Assembly (NCBI GenBank): GCA_035461765.1
Contig: DATHUY010000149.1
Coordinates: 1 to 64,000 of the forward strand
DNA: 64,000 nt
Direction of reading: 5' to 3'
Source of the DNA: Longimicrobiales bacterium
GTDB taxonomy: Bacteria > Gemmatimonadota > Gemmatimonadetes > Longimicrobiales > RSA9
Positions 50,481 through 55,588 of the stretch are shown in pieces (the first letter of the stretch is position 1; each line of letters starts with the position of its first letter). The translations under genes were made by a program, and so were the position numbers. The notes beneath the pieces are model-generated. The model did no database searches and had not been told where the DNA came from. It worked only from the letters and a program-made list of their open reading frames with translations.

Positions 50481-52682
50481 TCAGCCGCGCCGGCGTGCCC
50501 GGCGCGGCCGCTCCGCCTGCCGGCGCAAACGGCGTGCAGCGAGACTTCGTTCGATGAAGGCGTCGAGAGAACGACGCTGTGCAGAGCAGTGCGCCAGATC
50601 CGGGAACGTCTGCGGGAAGCGGTAGGCCAGCCACGCGTACAGCGTGAGCCGCTTCGCCTCCATCTCCGCGCCGCGCAGCTCATCGTCACTGAATGCGCGC
50701 TCCTTCTGGAACACCGGCGCGAGCGGAGCAAGATGAACCTCGCCGGCTGCAGCTCGCACACCCATCCAGGTGCCGTACTCCTCGATCAGCCACTCGATGC
50801 GCATGTCCACCGGTGCAGATGCGAGCGTCAACCGCTCCGCGAGCGGGATCTTCGGGTGCCGGTCGGCCAGGTCCGCAAGCACGATCATGTCATCCTGCAC
50901 ACCGGGCGAGAGCAGCTCCGAGTCGAACGTCATTCCTCGCTGGAAGGCGGACAACGCGCGCCCGAGGCGCCGCGTGTGCAGGCCTTCCGCGATGACCGCA
51001 ATGTGATCGGCGCCGGGTCGCACCTTCGTCGCGATCTCGCGATGCGGCGGCTCGTAGTCCGACGAGAACACCTGTGCCACGCGGCGCGCATCCCGGCGGT
51101 CGAACGCACCGACATGACCGCGCTCGTAGTGACCGAACCGACCGGCACGTCCGCCGATCTGGAGGATCTCCCACGGCTCGAGCTGAACGTCGTCCTCGCC
51201 ATTCCACTTCTGGAGAGTCGAGAAGCAGACGGTCCGTATCGGCAGGTTGAGTCCCATGGCGATCGCATCCGTGCTCACGAGCACCTGCGCCTCACCGGAG
51301 CGGAAGCGTCGCGCCTCTTCGCGGCGCACCTCCGGCGTCAGGTTGCCGTAGATCACCGCAACGCGATGTTCTCCTTCCAGTTCCGCTTTCAGAGCGAGCA
51401 CGTCGCGGCGCGTGAATGCGATGATGGCGGTGCCAGGCTCGACGTCCGTGAGCGACATCGGCTGGGCAGCGGCCTCGATCGGCACGTAGCGCTCGAGCAT
51501 GTGCACCGTGAGCGGTTCGCCCAGATACTCGGCCATCGCCTTCATCAGCGGGATCGCATCGGGTGAGCCTGTCATGATGACGCGGCGCGCGGGTGCACCA
51601 ACCAGCGCCTGGCACCACGCCCAGCCGCGATCACGATCGGTCAGCAGCTGGACCTCATCGATCACTACAGTGTCGACGACGCGCCGCGGATCCATCATCT
51701 CGATCGTGCTCGCGATGAACTGCGCGTCCTCCCGGATGTCACGCTCCTCCCCCGTGAGGAAGCTCGAGACGCGGCCCCGTTTCTCGATCTCCTCCTGCCC
51801 TTCCAATGCGAGCAGACGCAGCGGTGCCAGGTACGCGCCGGACTCCCCGGCCACCAGGTCGTTCAGCGCCCGCCACGTCTTGCCGCTGTTCGTGGGGCCG
51901 GCGTACATGATGAGCTGCCGCTCGAGAGAACGTGCGGTCGGGAAGTACTCACGGTACGCGATGAGGCCGTGCTCCTCGACCAGCGTGCGCACGCGCTCAC
52001 GCTCGCCCGCTTCCCTGTCGAACGATCCGATGCGGTACTGGATCTCCTCGAGTGCGGCCGGAATGTCATCCGCGTCACGGATCGCACGCAGCACCATGCG
52101 ACGGAGGCCGCGTGCGTCGTAGAGCGGGCGCGATACGCGCTCGGCCAGGATGCGATCGATCTGCGCGGCTGCGCCCCGCGTCTCATCGCGCGCCAGCTGC
52201 AGCTGGGCGTGCAGTGCAGGGCGTGCTTCCGCGATGAACTCGTCAGCGCTTCGGGTAAGGAGTGCCCGCTCGAGCACGCCGCCGACCAGGCGCCCGGCGA
52301 TCGGCACGGTATACTCCGATCCGTCGATGACGACCTTCTCCTCGCCCGCGATGCCGAAGCGGACGGTGCCGCGCAGGTCGTCGATCTGGATTTCCGGTGC
52401 AACCGCGACCACCGCACGAGCGCGCTCGGATCCGGCCGCACCGATCGCGGCCTGGCGGATCCGCTTCTCCAGCTTGCGCAGCGATGCGCCCGGCGCAGCC
52501 ATGCGCGCCAGCGCCTCGTCGAACAACGCCCAGCGCTCCGGCCCGTCAATGGACCAGAGCAGGTCGGCGATGCGCGTCGCGGCATCCTCGATCTGGTCAT
52601 CCGTCTCCCCGCCGACCAGCGGGCGCGTCGCCGCCGCGTCCAGCAGAGCCTGCCTGAAATCCTGACCGCCCTCAGCACTCAC
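50481..52682 (-). CDS. SUV3-like superfamily 2 helicase with a distinct N-terminal region
   Basis: I chose GTG 52682 (733 residues) because AGGGAGGTG precedes it; an open frame extends to 52766. The helicase core resembles mitochondrial/alphaproteobacterial SUV3: MYAGPTNSGKTWRALNDLVA (GPTNSGKT at 262-269), SGAYLAPLRLLALEGQEEIE, DEVQ box in VVIDEVQLLTDRDRGWAW, VIYGNLTPEVRREEARRFRS, STDAIAMGLNLPIRTVCFST and QIGGRAGRFG. A C-terminal region like SUV3-C follows (PLAERLTLASAPVDM). The first about 240 residues are unlike the core and I cannot assign them; there are no Zn or nucleic-acid motifs visible. SUV3 unwinds RNA with PNPase in mitochondria. A role in RNA decay is the natural guess here, but no nuclease neighbours it. 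Confidence 0.85.
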   Translation of the reverse strand: MSAEGGQDFRQALLDAAATRPLVGGETDDQIEDAATRIADLLWSIDGPERWALFDEALARMAAPGASLRKLEKRIRQAAIGAAGSERARAVVAVAPEIQIDDLRGTVRFGIAGEEKVVIDGSEYTVPIAGRLVGGVLERALLTRSADEFIAEARPALHAQLQLARDETRGAAAQIDRILAERVSRPLYDARGLRRMVLRAIRDADDIPAALEEIQYRIGSFDREAGERERVRTLVEEHGLIAYREYFPTARSLERQLIMYAGPTNSGKTWRALNDLVAGESGAYLAPLRLLALEGQEEIEKRGRVSSFLTGEERDIREDAQFIASTIEMMDPRRVVDTVVIDEVQLLTDRDRGWAWCQALVGAPARRVIMTGSPDAIPLMKAMAEYLGEPLTVHMLERYVPIEAAAQPMSLTDVEPGTAIIAFTRRDVLALKAELEGEHRVAVIYGNLTPEVRREEARRFRSGEAQVLVSTDAIAMGLNLPIRTVCFSTLQKWNGEDDVQLEPWEILQIGGRAGRFGHYERGHVGAFDRRDARRVAQVFSSDYEPPHREIATKVRPGADHIAVIAEGLHTRRLGRALSAFQRGMTFDSELLSPGVQDDMIVLADLADRHPKIPLAERLTLASAPVDMRIEWLIEEYGTWMGVRAAAGEVHLAPLAPVFQKERAFSDDELRGAEMEAKRLTLYAWLAYRFPQTFPDLAHCSAQRRSLDAFIERSLAARRLRRQAERPRRARRRG

Positions 52683-52813
52683 CCGATGCACCTCCCTCTG
52701 GCGCCGCCACGTGCAAGAAGCCTGCACAACCCGCGGCCCCGGTCGCAAGCGCGGGCGACCAGGCAAATGCGCGCAGTGATCGCAGAGGTGATCGTCGAGC
52801 GGCCGACGACGCG

Positions 52814-53479
52814 TCAGCGCCGCGCCGTTCGGGCGGGTGATGCGCGGGGCGATACCTGAAGACCAACGGCCAGCGCCCGCCGGTCGCCGAATGACATGGC
52901 GGCACGCAGGATCAGGACGCGACTGCGGTGCAGGGATATATCGAGTCCAGCGTCAGCCGCAAGCGCGAGACCGAAGGATTCATCGGGATGGCCCGGGCCG
53001 AAGTACCCCTCCAGAACGACGCGCGCCGATGTATATGGATGAACCCATACGTTATCGCCCGGGAACGTGCGGCTCGCAGCGACGCCTACGGGCAGACCCA
53101 CCGAGTAGTAGTCGCCGACAGCGCCACCGAATCCCGCCGTCCACGCGACATCGAGCGGGAACGTGGCGGATGGTTCGAACATCGGGAGCGCGAGGTCGAC
53201 GCCGCCGGACAGTCTGAGGTCGGATTGCTGCGGCAGCGTACCCGCGATGCGGAATCCGGGACCGCGCAGCGCAGCGGCGGGCCGGTAGGTGATGAGCAGG
53301 CCCGTGCCGTCATCCGGTCGAAGGCCATAGTCCACGTACATGAGTGTGATGCCCGCCTGCGTGGAGGATGCCAGCAGCTGCGGACTCTCCCACGGGACCT
53401 GCGCGTGAACCGGACTCGCACCGACCCCGGCAACCACGCATGCGGCCGCCATCATACGAGTCATTCTGCTGGGCTTCAT
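52814..53479 (-). CDS. Exported outer-membrane beta-barrel-like protein, unknown function
   Basis: The 221-residue protein starts with a signal peptide (MKPSRMTRMMAAACVVAGVG to PVHAQ). The mature part alternates polar and hydrophobic residues with many Gly/Tyr/Asp turns (GITLMYVDYGLRPDDG, LLITYRPAAALRGPGFRIAG, SGGVDLALPMF), as in small barrels of eight to ten strands. It is the first of three adjacent exported proteins. It and the lipoprotein are separated by 11 bases on the same strand, so it is probably in that operon. I do not recognise a family. Confidence 0.75.
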   Translation of the reverse strand: MKPSRMTRMMAAACVVAGVGASPVHAQVPWESPQLLASSTQAGITLMYVDYGLRPDDGTGLLITYRPAAALRGPGFRIAGTLPQQSDLRLSGGVDLALPMFEPSATFPLDVAWTAGFGGAVGDYYSVGLPVGVAASRTFPGDNVWVHPYTSARVVLEGYFGPGHPDESFGLALAADAGLDISLHRSRVLILRAAMSFGDRRALAVGLQVSPRASPARTARR

Positions 53480-53490
53480 GTGCGTTCTCC

Positions 53491-54732
53491 TCAGTTCGGC
53501 GCGCGCACGCCGGGCGCGCCGTAGTCGCGGTCACGGCCGATCACCGGCCCGTGGCTGACACGTGCGGAGTTGTCGGTTCGGGCGATGAACTGCCGGATAG
53601 ATCCCGGGAACGGCTCCGTGCGACCATTCCGGCCGAACGGATCGGTATACCAGACCTCGGGACCATCGGCGTTCGAGACGCGGTTGCCGTTGATGTCGAC
53701 GAACCGGCGCACACCGTTGAAGAGCGATCGGGGATCGTCATGCGGCAGGTCGGTGATCACACCGCCAGCCGTGCTGCTCTCGCACAGCCCGCCACGCGCA
53801 CGACGGCCGTCCGCCGTCACTTCGTAGCACACCGCGATCGGACGCGCGACACCGTCGCTCATGGCAGGGTCGTAGAAGCGGCTCGGGTACATCACCTGGA
53901 AATACGGATTCGCGCTCGCGATGCTACGGTTGTCCGCACGCCGGATGCTCATGCTGACCTCCCAGCTCTCGCGGAGAGCAGCGTCGTAGCGGGAGCGTTC
54001 ACCCTCGGGCACGAGCATGTGCTGCTCGATGCACTCACGGTCCGGGATAGCGCGTTTGCCGCCGCCATCCGGTGAGTTGGGTGGCGTCGCCGTGCCGACC
54101 ACGATGACACGGTCACGATCGCATGATGCCACCATTTCGCCCGCACGCCCGATTGCCGTCAGCAGCGTCACGTGCATTTCCGTCCGGTCGGAGCAACGGA
54201 TCGCATAGATCAGCTCGTGCAGATTGTTCGTGAACGCATCCTTCGAGTGCGATCCCTGGTGCAGCTTCGTAAGCACGTCACACCTGACATCGAGGATCTG
54301 GCCGGCGCCGCCCTCGAAGCTCATGCGCATGCCGTTCTCCCACTCGATCTTGTGACCAACGTGGTCCTCGTGCCGCATCGTGTGCGGGTCGTGCAGGTCC
54401 TGCTGTTCGTTCGCGTAGCCGAACGCGATCGGGCCGATGTCATCGAACAGGGCCGAGCCGCGTGGATCGCGACCGTGCTCGTGGCCGAATGAACAACCCG
54501 TCGCCTCATCGATGGGCGGATGCCATGTCGGGTAGACCTTACCGTCCGGACCTGTGACCGAGTACGCATTGTGGATCTCCGCAGCGCACTCGCCCTCGGC
54601 CGGGCGCCAGTTGTCATACGCGCGACTGTTCCCCACGACCTCGATGGGCGTGTCCGTCGGACTGCTCTCACACGAGAGCAGGAGCAGCGTGGCGACAGAG
54701 GTCGTCACCAGCCAGCCAGACATTCTGCGCAT
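53491..54732 (-). CDS. Histidine-rich exported lipoprotein of unknown function
   Basis: The 413-residue protein starts at ATG 54732 (AGGAG about 8 bases upstream), giving a signal peptide that ends with the lipobox LLLSC. The mature chain begins ESSPTDTPIEVVGNSRAYDN. A striking His/Asp cluster (GHEHGRDP, then LHDPHTMRHEDHVGHKIEW, about 92-140) looks metal-binding. Paired Cys positions (GECAAEIH, DVRCDV, IRCSDR, SCDRDR, VCYEV, LCESS) suggest disulfides. The C-terminal part (DINGNRVSNADGPEVWYTDP) resembles a calcium- or sugar-binding beta domain. I cannot place it in a named family. It lies between two small barrel-like exported proteins. Confidence 0.8.
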   Translation of the reverse strand: MRRMSGWLVTTSVATLLLLSCESSPTDTPIEVVGNSRAYDNWRPAEGECAAEIHNAYSVTGPDGKVYPTWHPPIDEATGCSFGHEHGRDPRGSALFDDIGPIAFGYANEQQDLHDPHTMRHEDHVGHKIEWENGMRMSFEGGAGQILDVRCDVLTKLHQGSHSKDAFTNNLHELIYAIRCSDRTEMHVTLLTAIGRAGEMVASCDRDRVIVVGTATPPNSPDGGGKRAIPDRECIEQHMLVPEGERSRYDAALRESWEVSMSIRRADNRSIASANPYFQVMYPSRFYDPAMSDGVARPIAVCYEVTADGRRARGGLCESSTAGGVITDLPHDDPRSLFNGVRRFVDINGNRVSNADGPEVWYTDPFGRNGRTEPFPGSIRQFIARTDNSARVSHGPVIGRDRDYGAPGVRAPN

Positions 54733-54785
54733 ATGGATCACTCCTGTCGGTTCATCCGGGATCGCCGCAAAGCCAACGGGTGTGT

Positions 54786-55418
54786 TCAACGATGCTTCAG
54801 CGCGAAACCGACCTGGAACAGCGACAGGCTCACGTCTTCCGCGACCGTACCATCGCCGGAATGGAGTGAGCCGAACGACGACGCGATCAGGCCGATCGAA
54901 TTCGTGATGCTCAGGCGGTTAGTTACCGGAAACTCATAGCCGGCACCGAGCACGAGACCGAACAGGTTTGTCCCGGACTCCGCGTCCAGGCTGTAATGGA
55001 CGAGGCCCGCGCCAGCCTTCAGGAACAGGCCGCGGCCGGGATCGGGATAGATGTAGGTGGTCGCACTGCCTGCCAGGATCATCGACCGCACGTCATCGTT
55101 CGAACGCGTCCACCCGTCCAGTTCTGCACCGACGAGGAGGCCGGGCCGGAGCGTGACGCCGATGCGGAGCGCGGCCGACGGTCCCGCGTACCGGTCCGCG
55201 CGACAGATCGTGCAGTTCACCCGCGTCCACCCGCCGCCAACACCTGCTGACAGCCACGAGCCTCCGCCCGCTGTGCCTGATGGCACAGCGTTGGGCCCCG
55301 CATTCTCCGTCCGGGCGGTTCCGGCCGGGCCCTGCGCGTGCAGCTGCACGGGAGCACCCGCGGCACACAGACCGGTGCCGGCAAGCAGCACGGTCAGCAC
55401 TACCTTCTGCAGCGACAT
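54786..55418 (-). CDS. Exported outer-membrane beta-barrel-like protein with CxxC loop
   Basis: The 210-residue protein starts at ATG 55418, preceded by GGGGAG. The signal peptide is KVVLTVLLAGTGLCAAGAPV to HAQ. The mature chain has the repeating Gly-rich strand pattern of small OmpA/OmpX-like barrels (WLSAGVGGGWTRV, LRIGVTLRPGLLVGAELDGW, KAGAGLVHYSLDAESG, GLVLGAGYEFPVTNRLSI) and ends FQVGFALKHR with a near-terminal aromatic residue as expected for BAM recognition. A CTIC motif (VNCTICRADRY) follows the first strand. It is the first gene of the three-gene exported set. Confidence 0.78.
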   Translation of the reverse strand: MSLQKVVLTVLLAGTGLCAAGAPVQLHAQGPAGTARTENAGPNAVPSGTAGGGSWLSAGVGGGWTRVNCTICRADRYAGPSAALRIGVTLRPGLLVGAELDGWTRSNDDVRSMILAGSATTYIYPDPGRGLFLKAGAGLVHYSLDAESGTNLFGLVLGAGYEFPVTNRLSITNSIGLIASSFGSLHSGDGTVAEDVSLSLFQVGFALKHR

Positions 55419-55588
55419 CGCTACTCCCCTTCTTGCGTGGAAGGCCCGTCGGTCCGCCCGCGGGCAATGGCGGCATCGGGCAAGAAGCGTTCGCGGGGCC
55501 ACGACGCGCCGTGGGCAGTGGCAATACGACAGTTACGCCGCTACAGTGGTACGGCTGTTTACGCGGGGGGAAATGCAATTTGAAAGAA

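Follow-up and report, generated by a model that had tools for sequence, protein, structure and literature searches.

A predicted SUV3-family helicase in a Longimicrobiales bacterium, its bacterial relatives and its N-terminal region

Does a bacterium of the Gemmatimonadota carry a SUV3 helicase, and if so, what does it tell us about the mitochondrial enzyme? The gene considered here lies in the window, a 64,000-nucleotide stretch of a Longimicrobiales contig. An earlier note, made from the sequence alone, described its product as a SUV3-like RNA helicase with about 240 unassigned residues before the core, and saw in such a gene outside the alphaproteobacteria a bearing on the origin of mitochondrial RNA decay. 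In passages of two papers (PMC4551930, PMC5818665), the SUV3 relatives named are those of eukaryotes and of Rhodobacter or purple bacteria.

The gene and its family

The helicase gene is a single frame of 733 codons on the minus strand, with a GTG start at 52682. A longer alternative frame begins with TTG at 52766; the GTG was chosen because GGGAGG lies 8 bases upstream of it and because the copy of a congener (L046) is collinear with the window gene from the same start, with 78% identity over query residues 1-296. The features of the gene are as follows.

50481..52682, minus strand: SUV3-family helicase gene, 733 aa, GTG start (Pfam, PDB sequence search, fold)
52691..52696, minus strand: likely ribosome-binding site, GGGAGG, 8 bases upstream of the start codon (read in the sequence; function presumed)
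52173..52682, minus strand: extra N-terminal domain, residues 1-170, helices and then three strands (predicted structure)
52455..52484, minus strand: S-L-R-K-x-E-K-x-x-R, residues 67-76 (alignment of 6 Gemmatimonadota rows)
51954..52172, minus strand: pre-core helices, residues 171-243 (predicted structure; the human SUV3 alignment starts here, at human residue 102)
51501..51950, minus strand: RecA1, DEXQc_Suv3, residues 245-394, holding GPTNSGKT and DEVQ
51132..51440, minus strand: RecA2, Helicase_C, residues 415-517, with QIGGRAGRFG at its end
50538..50666, minus strand: SUV3_C domain, residues 673-715 (Pfam 40.3 bits, cut-off 27)

The earlier note had the coordinates and motifs right: GPTNSGKT, DEVQ and IGGRAGRFG all occur in the translation (the last within QIGGRAGRFG), so that the protein contains all the SUV3 family motifs (GPTNSGKT, DExQ, QIxGRAGR), and the motif-bearing stretches invariant over 37 aligned relatives are all kept. 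In a profile search against Pfam, DEXQc_Suv3 (E 8.9e-47, 158.9 bits, cut-off 27), Helicase_C (E 5.5e-14, 52.8 bits, cut-off 23.5) and SUV3_C (E 2.9e-10, 40.3 bits) were all above cut-off. Suv3_C_1 (E 0.043, 14.2 bits) fell below its cut-off of 22.5, and its match lies in the expected place (residues 603-630).

A phmmer search of the PDB gave SUV3 chains at 2.8e-64 to 3.1e-58 (yeast Suv3 2.8e-64, human SUPV3L1 2.1e-58), with Ski2 as the next family at 3.2e-14; matches of this strength do not arise by chance. The PDB profile search with alignment A1 was not used for yeast Suv3, since A1 contained a yeast Suv3 piece and would match it by construction. The protein was modelled with AlphaFold2 from an alignment of 37 sequences (mean pLDDT 90.4). 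The top four structural matches of the predicted fold were SUV3 chains (Z 42.3, 41.1, 39.2 and 36.9), and the first non-SUV3 match was Hel308 (Z 18.7).

A Ski2/Hel308-type helicase with look-alike motifs would account for part of these results, since Ski2, Mtr4 and Hel308 match RecA2 by sequence (best 3.2e-14) and resemble the core structurally (Z at most 18.7). SUV3 is, however, far ahead throughout (2.8e-64; Z 36.9-42.3), and SUV3_C is above cut-off; we rejected this identity, to which we give a negligible probability, because SUV3 leads all sequence and fold comparisons. HamB, the Hachiman defence helicase, was also rejected, as the PADLOC HamB models match only part of the helicase core (best 6.3e-13, over residues 438-618). 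The core did not fall in another SF2 family; by motifs, RecA domains, SUV3_C and overall predicted fold, the window protein is a SUV3-family member. The earlier identification is borne out by Pfam, the PDB sequence search and the predicted fold, which all place the core with SUV3.

Bacterial relatives and the mitochondrial question

The SUV3 gene was found in 6 of 41 related genomes, all within the window's own family (6/12, against 0/29 for the others). Two of these copies are incomplete as read: that of genome G006 (L006 / L024) is split over two frames, by a sequencing error or as a broken gene, and that of G001 is cut by contig ends. The DEXQc_Suv3 model matched 7 of 298 sampled genomes of the phylum, namely five SUV3 genomes of the window's family and two others whose translations look like other helicases; no other family of this Gemmatimonadota sample yielded a SUV3.

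Outside the phylum, relatives were found in Campylobacterota, Blastocatellia, Bacillota and alpha-, beta- and gammaproteobacteria. A scan of the genome collection returned at least 551 confirmed stretches; the best 80 loci, which were kept, comprise 71 that are Campylobacterota by title, 6 from Gemmatimonadota (five isolates), and one each from Blastocatellia, an uncultured proteobacterium and Desulfosporosinus. In the trees, the SUV3 genes on the contigs titled Desulfosporosinus and Helicobacter pylori PMSS1 (L053, L057) fall well inside the Arcobacteraceae copies (100/96-97), a position that points to bins wrongly labelled or mixed. Plasmid matches (52 records) include Azospirillum, Rhizobium, Methylobacterium, Niveispirillum, Vitreoscilla, Ideonella, Pseudomonas and several Bacillota. 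Matches from phages and archaeal viruses (16 records) were weak apart from that of Salicola phage SCTP-2, which is 34% identical to the window protein across about 450 residues; in this 440-kb phage, gene 83 (L136:2605-4425) encodes a SUV3-like helicase annotated as hypothetical. With relatives across several phyla, the view that a gene outside the alphaproteobacteria would be exceptional is not supported. The best explanation is that the window gene belongs to a bacterial family of scattered distribution, which either entered a single Gemmatimonadota family or persisted there.

The bacterial relatives are of two types. Type I proteins (Azospirillum, Vitreoscilla, Methylobacterium and others; annotated 'helicase-related protein') have, like the window protein, DEXQc_Suv3 and Helicase_C, and mostly SUV3_C. 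Type II is alphaproteobacterial, was sampled solely from plasmids, at four loci (Sinorhizobium, Paracoccus, Sphingomonas, Indioceanicola), and presumably corresponds to the mgpS gene of Rhodobacter. Membership of the window protein in type II was rejected, as type II forms a separate branch (100/100) and the window protein has SUV3_C.

Among ten relatives scanned with Pfam, SUV3_C was above cut-off in eight (Blastocatellia, a proteobacterial MAG, Sulfurovaceae, Azospirillum, Vitreoscilla, Rhizobium, Methylobacterium and a Gemmatimonadota relative) and was not reported in those from Butyrivibrio and Sinorhizobium. For the sequence that follows the helicase core, a profile made from bacterial type I rows only, with no eukaryote included, gave human SUV3 64.1 bits and yeast SUV3 57.4 bits. 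The four plasmid-borne type II helicases reached at most 3.4 bits (0/4 recognised), and 120 shuffled sequences at most 0.7 bits. Since this profile recognises human and yeast SUV3, mitochondrial SUV3 shares the architecture of the scattered family. Among the matches listed (30 of 38 records), a yeast Suv3 core piece scored 191-249 bits against plasmid type I and 140-150 bits against type II.

Of the 72 loci L047-L118, 12 were used in the trees. All trees omit L043, which is frameshifted, and L046, which is partial; the phage copy was used only in the tree with a Ski2-like outgroup, which was unusable (branch 8.5). In the core plus C-terminus tree, four Gemmatimonadota copies are nearest to the window copy (99/98); Blastocatellia and the proteobacterial MAG join next (100/98), with Campylobacterota rows next outward (87/92; 97/90 in the core tree). 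In this tree, from which type II was left out, human and yeast SUV3 have long branches and stand next to plasmid copies of Bacillota (95/90). AU tests, on groups named after the trees were seen, rejected a clade of the window's group with mitochondrial (human, yeast) SUV3 (p-AU 0.0061) and one of mitochondrial SUV3 with five alphaproteobacterial copies (p 0.0159), kept mitochondrial SUV3 with Niveispirillum alone (p 0.216) and, for the core alone, kept a clade of mitochondrial SUV3 and type II (p-AU 0.526). Because the Niveispirillum clade was kept, mitochondrial SUV3 may still have an alphaproteobacterial source.

In line with the earlier note, the window protein could be read as a close relict of the stock from which mitochondrial SUV3 came, and the domain architecture, C-terminal domain included, is indeed that of mitochondrial SUV3. 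Against this, the joint clade is rejected at the p-AU of 0.0061, the nearest kin are Blastocatellia, the proteobacterial MAG and Campylobacterota, and a single family of the phylum sample has the gene. Such a relict, illuminating the origin of mitochondrial RNA decay, is therefore very improbable: close kinship of the two lineages is not supported by these trees, nor, given also the patchy presence in 6/12 genomes, is a direct bearing of the window gene on that origin.

The N-terminal region

The description of some 240 N-terminal residues as lacking a recognisable domain held up: residues 1-240 matched no Pfam family at its cut-off, and their predicted fold had no clear match in the PDB. For the N-terminal 277-residue piece, the sole match beside the start of the helicase domain was Phage-MuB_C (E 0.032, below cut-off). 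Modelled alone (251 residues, alignment of 25 sequences), the region is predicted with pLDDT 93.1 as four helices, three strands and then helices; in the whole-protein model the order is helix 68-94, strands 98-102, 107-119 and 122-133, and helix 146-183. Foldseek with the N-terminal domain alone gave a best E of 0.13, and a second structural comparison (VIA) found none of 969 chains at Z >= 8, its best match being a designed protein (Z 7.8), with TFIIS domain II at Z 6.3. This does not show that the fold is new. The order of elements is one we take to resemble that of double-stranded-RNA-binding domains; matches to such domains reached only Z 3.5-3.7, the noise level.

Whether this is simply the N-domain of SUV3 has a two-part answer. 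No search showed it to be so, and the last ~70 residues do align with human SUV3: the whole-protein superposition on human SUV3 starts at residue 171 (human 102; only the range ends are reported), and that on yeast Suv3 at residue 240 of the window protein.

Within Gemmatimonadota the region is conserved, and S-L-R-K-x-E-K-x-x-R (residues 67-76) is invariant in 6/6 rows, of which the window and L046 rows are congeners. Elsewhere the sequence ahead of motif I, measured from the earliest start codon that could serve, varies widely: seven Arcobacter-type copies have 35-94 residues there, most Campylobacterota copies with uncut starts (the Sulfurimonas and Sulfurovum sort) about 435-464, and the Azospirillum copy 218. 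On Rhizobium leguminosarum plasmid pRlX5 (L123:2740-4617), an HTH_17/MerR-like stretch, below the Pfam cut-off, replaces the long N-terminal region. Given these differences between lineages in length and in the HTH_17/MerR-like stretch, N-terminal variability is a habit of the bacterial SUV3 family. A figure legend in PMC10253155 calls the N-domain the most diverse part of mitochondrial SUV3.

A search for repeated or shared units among the N-terminal regions comprised 13 profile comparisons, several with weak signal. In Campylobacterota, the best signals came from the first half of the N-terminus compared with the second (p 0.008), from the second half compared with the Gemmatimonadota domain (p 0.0013) and from the complete N-termini of the two groups (p 0.0078); Blastocatellia gave p 1.2e-4 with the Gemmatimonadota domain, over the last 69 residues. 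These values are suggestive of a shared or repeated unit within bacterial SUV3 N-termini.

Proposed function and comparison with known SUV3 proteins

The literature describes mitochondrial SUV3 as a 3'-5' helicase that needs a 3' tail and works with PNPase or Dss1 (PMC5818665, PMC4551930). In the window helicase, sequence and predicted fold support the view that the RecA pair and SUV3 C-terminal domain most likely form an RNA-threading core as in human and yeast SUV3. By analogy, it would most likely move 3' to 5' on structured RNA and strip its structure. The unwound RNA would then be handed to the cell's 3' exonuclease, PNPase or RNase R. The N-terminal domain is probably a lineage-variable accessory that docks RNA or a partner; we guess this from how well the domain is conserved and from the basic character of its conserved stretch. 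We consider it probable, from sequence, model and analogy together, that the gene encodes a genuine bacterial SUV3-type ATP-dependent RNA helicase working in this way. No experiment on a bacterial SUV3 was reported in the literature listings covered or in passages of PMC10253155, PMC4551930, PMC5758563 and PMC5818665.

Candidate nucleases are at hand. PNPase is present in 12/12 genomes of the window's family. RNase R and RNase Y are both encoded in the window's genome, which gave no match for RNase E/G, so that a degradosome, if any, would be of the RNase Y sort. Because the 6/12 family genomes without the SUV3 gene all have PNPase, a SUV3-PNPase partnership would not be obligatory. No neighbour gene or co-occurrence ties the window helicase to PNPase, RNase R or RNase Y. 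Its neighbours encode an AbgT transporter and an FMN reductase, and three further ORFs match no Pfam family. This order is conserved in the congener only; the three unmatched ORFs are consecutive (52814-55502, minus strand), and their order is kept there. In other genomes, five of nine flanking ORFs had Pfam matches (HD-domain protein, DUF6079 ATPase, Fic protein, M23 peptidase, citrate synthase). No RNA-decay gene or operon lies beside SUV3 in the window, in the congener or among these nine ORFs.

A second RNB exonuclease with S1-like C-terminal domains accompanies RNase R in the window's genome (G000, contig C133; L141:3885-5942); G004 has a similar one, and G003 one that is broken into pieces; the remaining family genomes show only RNase R or nothing at the cut-off used (E 1e-20). 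It is thus present in 3/6 SUV3-bearing and 0/6 SUV3-lacking family genomes. For a Dss1-like partner it is no more than a lead: Dss1 is not among its PDB matches, and weaker relatives occur in another family without SUV3.

The same core could serve another use, such as the unwinding of DNA or of R-loops, a task at the ribosome or under stress, or defence; RNA decay would then not be its main role. The patchy distribution and dispensability (6/12 family genomes), the large differences among N-termini and the PADLOC HamB matches to part of RecA2 (best 6.3e-13) point this way, as does the statement, in PMC4551930, that mitochondrial SUV3 also unwinds DNA and RNA-DNA duplexes. Nothing specific, however, favours any such role: neighbour genes are unrelated, and the PADLOC matches are to part of the helicase core and far weaker than those to SUV3. 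We regard another main use as less likely, though by no means far-fetched, and prefer the RNA-decay role. A bolder, compound proposal is that mitochondrial SUV3 stems, by transfer perhaps, from the scattered bacterial family with the C-terminal domain rather than from type II, and that the Gemmatimonadota N-terminus is a new RNA- or nuclease-docking domain; taken whole, we hold this only tentatively and doubt that both halves are true.

The SUV3 core plus C-terminal domain in several bacterial phyla goes beyond the earlier descriptions; together with the lack of that domain in the four plasmid-borne type II helicases, it changes the choice of bacterial proteins for rooting mitochondrial SUV3 and points to cultivable bacteria for the study of free-living SUV3. 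What stays of interest is this predicted architecture across bacteria, and a confidently modelled N-terminal domain without a clear PDB match.

Among the bacterial proteins, type I members (Azospirillum, Methylobacterium and Vitreoscilla among others) share 40-51% core identity with the window protein, whereas their N-termini are unlike its own. Type II has DEXQc_Suv3 like the window protein (one member scanned) but 33-37% core identity, lacks the SUV3 C-terminal domain by profile (4/4) and forms a long separate branch. Many bacterial relatives have a C-terminal CxxC-CxxC pattern that the window's genus lacks; this zinc-ribbon-like element occurs in L040, L041, L044, most of L047-L118, L119, L120, L127-L129 and L135 and is absent from the window protein and congener L039.

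Human SUPV3L1/SUV3, which acts in mitochondria, has the motifs, both RecA domains and the SUV3 C-terminal domain in common with the window protein (PDB 3RC3, 3RC8, 7W1R; Z 36.9-42.3; sequence E 2.1e-58), while residues 1-170 of the window protein fall outside the alignment. Yeast (Candida glabrata) Suv3 of mtEXO (PDB 6F4A) superposes over 423 residues of core and C-terminus (Z 39.2, rmsd 2.1), with 44% core identity and alignment only from residue 240 of the window protein; its mtEXO partner Dss1 is not among the PDB matches of the genome's second RNB protein.
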